From a virus: DNA of 34,446 nucleotides. Location of the stretch: positions 1 through 34,446 of the IMG/VR virus record IMGVR_UViG_3300036770_001464. One strand, written 5' to 3'. This document shows, piece by piece, positions 32,344-33,638 of the stretch (the first letter of the stretch is position 1; every line of letters begins with the position of its first letter). Under the pieces are notes generated by a model that was given only the letters and a program-made list of their open reading frames with translations, was not told where the DNA came from and made no database searches. The position numbers and the translations under genes were made by a program.

Positions 32344-32353
32344 CTGATAAAAT
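32324..32353 (+). promoter_or_regulatory. Promoter TTGGCA-N18-TAAAAT
   Basis: TTGGCA (32324-32329) and an extended -10 (TGATAAAAT, -10 at 32348-32353) are 18 bases apart and overlap the end of the holin-like gene. Transcription would start near 32360 and read into the long structured leader of the transglycosylase gene. Confidence 0.5.
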
Positions 32354-32359
32354 TAGATA

Positions 32360-32555
32360 GTACGAACACCGCACCCTCTAAATAATAGAATTGGCGGATC
32401 ATCGTATAAGGCCCTGGGAGCGATTCTGGGGCCTTCTAACACTATACGGAACGACCAAGGCCTGAAAGTGTCTTAAAACCGCCTTAGAAGGCGTTTAAAG
32501 GGCATCTGGAAGGAAACTCATGGGGTTATCATGGGGCTAACCAAGGAGAAGACCT
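32360..32555 (+). ncRNA. Structured leader with competing hairpins
   Basis: These bases hold no recognised protein gene. A 12-pair hairpin capped by a GCGA tetraloop (32408-32435) is flanked by CGTAT/ATACG arms. GGCCTT in its 3' arm can instead pair with AAGGCC at 32457-32462, so two forms exclude each other. A second imperfect hairpin (32472-32500) has CGCCT/AGGCG at its top, and GGTTA/TAACC (32524-32542) forms a third. The design is like a cis-acting regulatory leader; the ligand, if any, is unknown. Confidence 0.4.
32520..32540 (+). CDS. Possible six-codon leader peptide
   Basis: An ATG at 32520 opens a six-codon frame (MGLSWG, then TAA) preceded by GGAAGGAAA (32508-32516). It ends 15 bases before the candidate AUU start of the transglycosylase and lies within the last leader hairpin. 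It could couple translation to the enzyme. Too short to be certain. Confidence 0.25.
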   Translation: MGLSWG

Positions 32556-32558
32556 ATT
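32543..32558 (+). promoter_or_regulatory. Ribosome binding site with AUU as start codon
   Basis: AAGGAG (32543-32548) is followed after seven bases by ATT (32556-32558) in the transglycosylase frame. The downstream ATG (32583) has only two bases after its GGAG. AUU gives the protein a basic n-region before the hydrophobic segment. Confidence 0.45.
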
Positions 32559-32957
32559 AGGAAAAATACAATAATAGGAGCGATGGCTGTATTAATATCA
32601 GTTTTATTAGTACAACTAACTGCTCCAACTCCAGCAGTACCAGTAGTTTACGAACCAAGGCCATTATTGGCTCAGGTGAGTGCAAAGGCGGTAGCCAAAG
32701 AATTACTGAATAAAAAGCAATATGCTTGCCTTGCAAAACTGATTGGAAAAGAATCAGCATGGAGGCCAGAAGCCAAAAATCCAAGATCTACAGCATCAGG
32801 CATAGGTCAATTATTAGACAAGACCTATAGAAATCTTGGAATGAATAAATCTGATGCAGGAGTAGCACAATTGGTTGCTACGCTATCATATATACACAGA
32901 AGGCATTACACACCATGTGGTGCCTGGAAACATTTTCAACACAAGGGATGGTACTAA
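32556..32957 (+). CDS. Secreted lytic transglycosylase (SLT-like)
   Basis: This is a 133-residue form if AUU is the start, 124 residues if the ATG at 32583 is used. With AUU the N-terminus reads basic RKN, then hydrophobic IIGAMAVLISVLLVQL, then a Pro/Ala cleavage region, a proper signal peptide; the ATG form lacks the basic part. The domain is a small goose-lysozyme/SLT fold: CLAKLIGKESAWRPEAKNPRS (catalytic Glu), ASGIGQLLDKTYRNLG and LSYIHRRHYTPCGAWKHFQHKGWY. It would cleave glycan strands from outside the membrane, aiding lysis or acting at entry. The two cysteines may form a disulphide. Its TAA overlaps the next ATG. Similar single-domain secreted enzymes occur in actinobacteria. Confidence 0.82.
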   Translation: MRKNTIIGAMAVLISVLLVQLTAPTPAVPVVYEPRPLLAQVSAKAVAKELLNKKQYACLAKLIGKESAWRPEAKNPRSTASGIGQLLDKTYRNLGMNKSDAGVAQLVATLSYIHRRHYTPCGAWKHFQHKGWY

Positions 32958-33049
32958 TGGAAGAAAAAGAAGTTGAAAAAGAACAACAATTTTTTGTTTA
33001 TGAAATGGATGAAGAAGGAATTTTCCTTAAAGTAGTATATCCTGTTTGA
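32957..33049 (+). CDS. Small acidic peptide before regulatory region
   Basis: This is a 30-residue acidic peptide (MEEKEVEKEQQFFVYEMDEE ... YPV). It starts on a TAATG overlap with the transglycosylase, and its TGA lies inside the -35 box of the next promoter, like the stop of the glycosyltransferase at 1929. The coupling supports expression. No domain is recognised. Confidence 0.5.
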   Translation: MEEKEVEKEQQFFVYEMDEEGIFLKVVYPV

Positions 33050-33075
33050 CATAGGGTTTTTGCCTATGTTATAAT
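33046..33075 (+). promoter_or_regulatory. Perfect consensus promoter TTGACA-N18-TATAAT
   Basis: TTGACA (33046-33051) and TATAAT (33070-33075) are both perfect and 18 bases apart. Transcription would start near 33082. The next terminator ends at 33165, so the transcript would be about 80 bases with no convincing gene. Confidence 0.8.
33049..33069 (+). promoter_or_regulatory. Perfect dyad inside the promoter, candidate operator
   Basis: ACATAGG (33049-33055) and CCTATGT (33063-33069) form a perfect inverted repeat that fills the space between -35 and -10 boxes. A protein bound here would block RNA polymerase. As RNA it could also be a hairpin at the 3' end of the lysis transcript. Confidence 0.55.
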
Positions 33076-33081
33076 AGGTAT

Positions 33082-33165
33082 ATTCTTTGTTGCCATACAT
33101 TGAATAACATCACCTCCTGATGATGAAAATAGCCTCCAGCACTCTAAACCTGGAGGTTATTTTTT
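33082..33165 (+). ncRNA. Candidate small RNA with anti-Shine-Dalgarno loop
   Basis: The unit runs from a consensus promoter to a strong terminator with no convincing gene between. Near its middle CATCA (33108-33112) and TGATG (33118-33122) form a stem that displays CCTCC (33113-33117) in the loop; the stretch ATCACCTCCT equals the tail of bacterial 16S rRNA. C-rich loops of this kind in bacterial small RNAs pair with Shine-Dalgarno sites and block translation. Complementary sites occur in this phage upstream of genes 2004 and 2165. The 5' end is estimated from the -10 box; expression and targets are untested. Confidence 0.55.
33131..33165 (+). terminator. Rho-independent terminator
   Basis: CCTCCAG (33133-33139) pairs with CTGGAGG (33150-33156), extended by AG/TT, with a ten-base loop, and is followed by TTATTTTTT. 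It is the best terminator in the genome and ends the short transcript from 33082. Confidence 0.88.
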
Positions 33166-33170
33166 ATAAT

Positions 33171-33200
33171 TTGACATTAGAAAAACTCTTCTGCTACAAT
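33171..33200 (+). promoter_or_regulatory. Promoter TTGACA-N18-TACAAT
   Basis: TTGACA (33171-33176), TG before the -10 and TACAAT (33195-33200), 18 bases apart, lie directly behind the terminator. ACTCTT/AAGAGT arms (33185-33190, 33201-33206) flank the -10 box. Transcription would start near 33207. Confidence 0.7.
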
Positions 33201-33203
33201 AAG

Positions 33204-33350
33204 AGTACTTCAGGGCGTTTAGCGATTGCATCAATGTTGGTTCTGAAGGGACTACGGGCAGGTTGCTTGAGTCTCGTTGAATTCTCACGAAGAGTGCTGA
33301 ATTACGAAGTAGTACTAATGGCGAAGCCATATCTTTTAACAGAAGATTTT
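33204..33350 (+). ncRNA. Candidate structured RNA behind second promoter
   Basis: No convincing gene lies here. AGTAC/GTACT and TTC/GAA segments (33204-33211 with 33306-33316) can close a long outer stem. CTTCAG/CTGAAG (33208-33213, 33243-33248) is a local alternative, GACT/AGTC and CAC/GTG pairs lie inside, and ATGGC-GAA-GCCAT (33318-33330) is a perfect terminal hairpin. The 3' half has a vague likeness to RNAs from the right ends of TnpB elements, but no tnpB is present. It could equally be a 5' leader of the next operon. Confidence 0.35.
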
Positions 33351-33363
33351 CATATGTTAAAAT
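33336..33363 (+). promoter_or_regulatory. Promoter TTAACA-N16-TAAAAT
   Basis: TTAACA (33336-33341) and TGTTAAAAT (extended -10, box 33358-33363) are 16 bases apart. Transcription would start near 33370 and serve the operon that runs from 33414 across the join to 1929. Confidence 0.5.
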
Positions 33364-33413
33364 CCGACATGGGCAGACATTAGAAAAGAAAAGATTAAAG
33401 GGGTAATGTAAGT

Positions 33414-33638
33414 ATGGGAAGTAATATTAATTGGATAGATGAAAGAAGTCCTTTTAAAAGAGAAAAAGAATATTTAGATAATAGTAATACTAATAAAGCA
33501 TGGAAAACTATTATTAATGTTTTTGAAGATATTAAGTGTGATGCCTGCACAAGAAGAATTAAAAAAGGCCAAAAGATTTTGATCCATTCTGAAACAAGTT
33601 CAAAAATGCATTTAGCCAAGGACTGCAAATTATGGTGA
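33414..33638 (+). CDS. Small protein with Cys/His motif, unknown
   Basis: This is a 74-residue protein starting MGSNINWIDERSPFKREKEY. Its second half has CDACTRRIKKGQKILIHSETSSKMHLAKDC, a possible zinc site (CxxC ... H ... C) resembling the LIM/PARP-type zinc ribbons of some phage proteins. AAAGGGG (33397-33403) precedes the ATG, with a longer spacer than usual. It opens the left-arm operon of small genes. No function can be assigned. Confidence 0.6.
   Translation: MGSNINWIDERSPFKREKEYLDNSNTNKAWKTIINVFEDIKCDACTRRIKKGQKILIHSETSSKMHLAKDCKLW

Follow-up and report, generated by a model that had tools for sequence, protein, structure and literature searches.

A probable antisense small RNA gene with an anti-Shine-Dalgarno loop in a family of uncultured tailed phages

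What is encoded by a stretch of phage DNA that carries a perfect promoter and a terminator with no gene between them? The window (the whole 34,446-nucleotide stretch of viral DNA that was analysed) is tailed-phage DNA, in which terminase, portal, protease, major head protein, endolysin and transglycosylase genes were found. The unit in question sits 3' of the transglycosylase gene (32583-32957) and of a 30-codon acidic open reading frame (ORF; 32957-33049), the TGA stop codon of which is overlapped by the -35 box of the promoter. A preliminary description of this DNA had interpreted the unit as an anti-Shine-Dalgarno (anti-SD) small RNA (sRNA), and comparison with related sequences supports that interpretation. 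We consider it likely that positions 33046-33165 are a free-standing gene for a trans-acting antisense sRNA of a phage family, whose CACCUCC segment would mask the ribosome-binding site (RBS) of its target (Table 1). No PHROG match was found for the acidic ORF of the window; in most relatives, the sRNA promoter follows a short acidic ORF of about 30-40 codons, or two such ORFs in tandem, and these vary fast. The roughly 240 nt between 32343 and the transglycosylase gene (32344-32582) hold no clear gene and contain short inverted repeats, such as AAAACCGCCTTAGAAGGCGTTT, and are possibly another RNA.

Table 1. Features of the sRNA gene in the window and of similar units in a distant lineage (positions are those of the window unless a locus is named).
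Feature	Position	Strand	Remark
Sigma-70-type promoter, TTGACA-N18-TATAAT, extended -10 (TG)	33046-33075	+	Same geometry in about 50 related loci
Small RNA, about 84 nt	33082-33165	+	Start predicted from promoter, end from T-run; unit conserved, 55 loci
5' hairpin AUUC/GAAU showing loop 1 (UUUGUUGCCAUACAUU)	33082-33105	+	Predicted fold; other group C members have different stems, same GUUGCCAU loop
Conserved loop GUUGCCAU, complementary to AUGGCAAC (start codon context)	33089-33096	+	Invariant in 9/9 distinct group C sequences, also in L258
Second hairpin CAUCA-CCUCC-UGAUG, anti-SD loop	33108-33122	+	CCUCC unpaired probability 0.93 in window
CCUCC anti-SD core	33113-33117	+	37/38 distinct types; invariant columns 11-17 of A2
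Intrinsic terminator, 10-nt loop CACUCUAAAC	33126-33165	+	Stem and T-run
Promoter, CACCUCC and terminator units, distant lineage	L084 3283-3410; L087 510-640	-	After late genes

The perfect promoter noted in the preliminary description holds up: the -35 box (33046-33051) and the -10 box (33070-33075) match the consensus at 12 of 12 positions around an 18-nt spacer, with TG ahead of the -10 box, and a mean of only 0.09 such sites per window is expected by chance (200 dinucleotide shuffles). The dyad described between the boxes is also present, as the perfect inverted repeat ACATAGG/CCTATGT (33050-33071). Relatives do not keep this repeat; many group A promoter spacers have TTATAACACCTGC in common instead, and both spacer sequences are possible operators. 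The terminator consists of a 14-bp stem (AAAATAGCCTCCAG, 33126-33139, with CTGGAGGTTATTTT, 33150-33163) around a loop at 33140-33149 and is followed by T; it was missed by a simple scan because its loop is 10 nt long. While a strong terminator is indeed found, its distance from the expected start (33082) is 45-84 nt and not exactly the 56-90 bases given earlier. No gene lies between promoter and terminator, as had been claimed, in that relatives have no conserved reading frame there. A separate promoter at 33171-33200 begins the next transcription unit, and the 84-nt sRNA unit therefore stands alone. As judged from sequence, an own promoter and an intrinsic terminator that enclose no conserved frame are as expected of a trans-acting anti-SD sRNA.

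Scans with the transglycosylase and with promoter-loop patterns revealed the promoter-hairpin(s)-terminator unit in 55 loci (the window and 54 further viral loci), nearly all at the same place. As some loci are pieces of the same contigs entered twice, the 38 distinct 5' domains provide the safer count. The preliminary description had named loop conservation as a test of the sRNA and a protein frame conserved across the loop bases as grounds against it; CCUCC is kept in 37 of the 38 types, and no such frame exists among the relatives, where ATG-to-CCTCC frames and lengths change and a conserved peptide is therefore disfavoured. The one type lacking CCUCC (L029) has another C-rich loop, CUCCC, and carries GCUCCCUUUC, which resembles the second hairpin of L158 (CAUCCCUUUCUGG). 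A DNA similarity search among named phages yielded nothing relevant. An exact search of viral contigs with ATCACCTCCTGATGATG matched only unrelated coding sequence; the loop is conserved and the stem sequence is not. Most pattern matches in unrelated contigs, among those listed, were set aside as lacking a terminator. A promoter, AACACCUCCUUUU and a terminator do occur together at L310 4445-4560, on a contig none of whose proteins matches the window.

The 5' domains fall into three groups. In group A, CUAUG-(N)-CACCUCC-(N)-CAUAG stands right at the RNA start and the CACCUCC columns are invariant; in group B, the form is GUUGA-UUACCUCCU...UCAAC, in most cases with a further hairpin after it; and in group C, which includes the window, a hairpin with the GUUGCCAU loop is followed by CACCUCCU, which lies either in another hairpin or in an open linker. 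CACCUCCU (33111-33118 in the window) is the group C form around CCUCC and is invariant in that group. The five-base CCTCC loop described earlier is found on its CATCA (33108-33112) and TGATG (33118-33122) stem, and the reported match to the 16S rRNA 3' tail is likewise confirmed, with ATCACCTCCT at 33109-33118 identical to part of the bacterial 16S tail. The sequence from 33082 to 33167 folds 6.9 standard deviations better than shuffles, mostly because of the terminator; the portion ahead of the terminator has a fold z of -2.7. Each of the 38 distinct 5' domains is predicted to fold more stably than its dinucleotide-shuffled versions (z below -1 in 38/38, mean -2.3), and CCUCC is predicted to be mostly unpaired in them (mean probability 0.82), so that the anti-SD segment is both conserved and predicted to be single-stranded, as in known trans-acting anti-SD sRNAs.

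The stems that enclose CCUCC have unrelated sequences, yet all of them pair: CUAUG/CAUAG, CUAUA/UAUAG, GUUGA/UCAAC, AUUGC/GCAAU (the stem of L139), CAUCA/UGAUG and GUCAG/CUGAC. L078, L135, L142, L151 and L087 have CCUCC in an open linker and not in a stem-loop. Between groups, stems differ around a constant CCUCC; within group A, the stem pairs in all members with one compensatory change among 5 pairs. Since the group A stem hardly varies, the evidence for structure comes from stem replacement between groups. In group C, the stems shift, and RNAalifold on a MAFFT alignment therefore recovered just 4 pairs. The gene has been kept through full stem turnover. Terminator loops in the relatives are mostly 10-19 nt long, C/U-rich and NCUCCCRUUCUC-like, while other terminators of the same phages mostly have loops of 4-6 nt; a few of the latter also have UCCCC loops, and the motif is therefore not unique to the sRNA. 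L038 and L040 have the same 5' domain and different terminators, a pattern which suggests that terminator modules are exchanged between members. The terminator loop may also take part in pairing.

Carriers of the sRNA form one clade in a maximum-likelihood tree of the transglycosylase (support 99/99), and all nine members examined of the sister clade lack the unit in the stretch behind the transglycosylase (up to 700 nt). A unit of the same plan is also present in a second phage lineage, represented by L084 and L087, which have almost no protein in common with the window (the L087 portal belongs to another family). Each has a promoter and a hairpin, then an open region that contains CUUCACCUCCG or UCUCACCUCCA, and a terminator with a C-rich loop; between the two, the hairpins differ while CACCUCC stays, and the L087 hairpin, GUUAGUUCUUGCCAAUUAAC, is similar to the one in L021.

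The host is probably an actinobacterium, because both the transglycosylase matches and the nearest portal point to actinophages. Transglycosylase matches among named phages are almost all to Actinobacteria phages, with two records carrying no name beyond Caudovirales; judged by its portal, the closest named phage is Pontimonas phage phiPsal1 (41.6%), from which an aquatic source may be guessed. CACCTCC is absent from the holin-HTH gap of phiPsal1, and WhiB, a hallmark of actinophages, was not found in the window. A search for the group A hairpin pattern across 85,000 species genomes gave two chance matches, in Bacteroidales-type genomes, so there is no host copy of this hairpin form.

How would such an RNA act? 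It would be transcribed from its consensus promoter, probably by host RNA polymerase, and would end at its own terminator. The short hairpins would keep CACCUCC single-stranded for pairing and, in the subgroup of the window, GUUGCCAU as well. CACCUCC is the complement of GGAGGUG, and the GGAGGUG Shine-Dalgarno (SD) sequence of a target mRNA could pair with it while a AUGGCAAC start paired with GUUGCCAU, keeping the 30S subunit off the message. In group C, GUUGCCAU and CACCUCCU are, in that order, antisense to AGGAGGUG...AUGGCAAC, an RBS plus start codon. The linker between these two invariant 8-mers varies in length (7 to about 22 nt), as would fit pairing in trans but not a minus-strand gene. 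Such a gene, which would start AGGAGGTG...ATGGCAAC, was rejected, as its SD-to-ATG distance would range from 9 to 23 nt and its frames stop after 3-10 codons. The same pair (AGGAGGUG plus AUGGCAAC) occurs at no phage gene start in the examined loci, which makes a host mRNA the likely target. Were this so, the sRNA would be a family-wide tool for host takeover at translation initiation in uncultured, probably aquatic actinophages, and its short exact pairing sequences (CACCUCCU and GUUGCCAU) would make the target predictable and testable given a host genome.

The preliminary description had offered either a silencing RNA or a mimic of the 16S tail. While its anti-SD reading is supported, a plain mimic is made less likely by the second conserved loop, GUUGCCAU, of group C, which favours a specific antisense to an RBS and start codon. 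It is unlikely, for this reason among others, that the RNA serves a general host shut-off in which a 16S-tail mimic binds any mRNA with a strong GGAGGU while phage messages with AAGGAGA escape. Such a shut-off, which would discriminate between messages by splitting the anti-SD sequence, fits the starts of phage genes, which carry AAGGA (162), AGGAG (137) and GGAGA (121) far more often than GGAGG (23) or GGAGGTG (3; n = 506, automatic gene calls), but this bias may merely mirror that of the host itself. It also fits the predicted pairing of the exposed segment, at -18.7 kcal/mol with a perfect GGAGGUGA and about -6.6 with AAGGAGAA, and the base after CCUCC in group A, which is mostly G or A and not the U of 16S rRNA, so that pairing with AGGAG is limited. 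Hitting all mRNAs, however, would require a very high RNA copy number.

The best-known phage antisense RNAs, c4 of P1 among them, target genes of the phage itself. Control of this phage's own genes, for example a gene translationally coupled to a small conserved ORF that precedes it (window 2165, GGAGGTGTACGCATAATG) or the tape-measure gene, appears rather improbable here. Ranking of phage-internal targets in several genomes gave no clear winner: the 2165 junction or its counterpart comes first or near first in the window (-13.8), G005 (-13.7), G011 (-16.6) and G014 (-13.5) but ranks low in G010 and G015. The start at 2165 is one of the three with GGAGGTG, and GGTG...GCAT(A)ATG is kept at the junction though the next gene differs. 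Even so, the evidence for 2165 as a target is weak, because these nucleotides also code for the C-terminal end of the protein upstream and GGUG pairs just as well with the 16S tail; in addition, AUGGCAAC is absent at this junction. Within 2004-2170, the small conserved ORF runs into the beginning of the gene that follows (TAATG), which in different phages is endonuclease VII-like or another gene.

It is very unlikely that the RNA acts as a decoy, either for proteins such as Era or S1 that bind the 3' end of 16S rRNA or for an RNase or toxin cleaving that end. While GAUCACCUCC in L030, L031 and L034 is identical to the 16S tail, L023 has UUGCCUCC and L020 has UUACCUCC, so that CCUCC alone is near-universal and the AUCA portion is not conserved; the nucleotide following CCUCC is variable, and GUUGCCAU would be left unexplained. 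Most improbable is an attenuator or 5' leader in which a conditional terminator controls the genes that lie downstream, with CCUCC competing for the GGAGG that the window terminator contains, since group A terminators lack the GGAGG needed for an alternative pairing of loop and terminator, and a separate promoter serves the operon downstream, also in relatives.

A trans-acting antisense sRNA that masks an RBS would work as other RNAs with anti-SD loops are established to do (PMC3927594, PMC10746234; for c4 RNA, PMC12197685). Staphylococcus aureus RNAIII, CyaR and AbcR1 bind the RBS of mRNAs through loops whose anti-SD motifs are at least partial (PMC3927594); these RNAs differ from the phage sRNA in size, host and sequence, and none is known to be encoded by this phage family. 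The alpha-r14 or "cuckoo" sRNAs are described as keeping an ultraconserved anti-SD motif unpaired on highly different stems (PMC10746234, PMC3927594). The phage sRNA resembles these alpha-r14/NfeR1/cuckoo RNAs of Rhizobiales in being free-standing and in presenting an unpaired anti-SD motif in constant loops on diverging stems, and both carry C-rich motifs in multiple loops. However, only alpha-r14/cuckoo RNAs, in genomes of Alphaproteobacteria, have three hairpins (four in the RFMSmelA099 model) that show CCUCCUCCC, whereas each phage RNA has one CACCUCC and a CUCCCRUUCUC-like terminator loop. The phage sRNA is also phage-borne, has GUUGCCAU as a second loop in one subgroup, and shows no sequence kinship to them. 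The c4 antisense RNA of phages P1 and P7, which acts on the phage's own antirepressor mRNA, is likewise phage-encoded, with complementary stretches that likely lie in loops and pair around the RBS (PMC12197685), but no phage gene start in the examined loci fits both loops of the phage sRNA. No covariance model of Rfam 15 matched above its gathering score (the best sub-threshold match was Yfr10, E 0.23), and no phage sRNA family of this kind was found in the open-access literature. We regard the phage sRNA as a new family whose proposed mode of action is already known, one that falls outside alpha-r14/cuckoo and probably outside c4 too.

A second RNA, a highly conserved leader, was observed in the window at 33205-33395, between the promoter at 33171-33200 and the gene at 33414. 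In other relatives this position is occupied by an ORF or by one of several conserved leaders that differ greatly. The leader of the window has no Rfam match and, with 44 pairs of which 13 show changes on both sides (RNAalifold, 11 relatives), may represent a new class of structured RNA.
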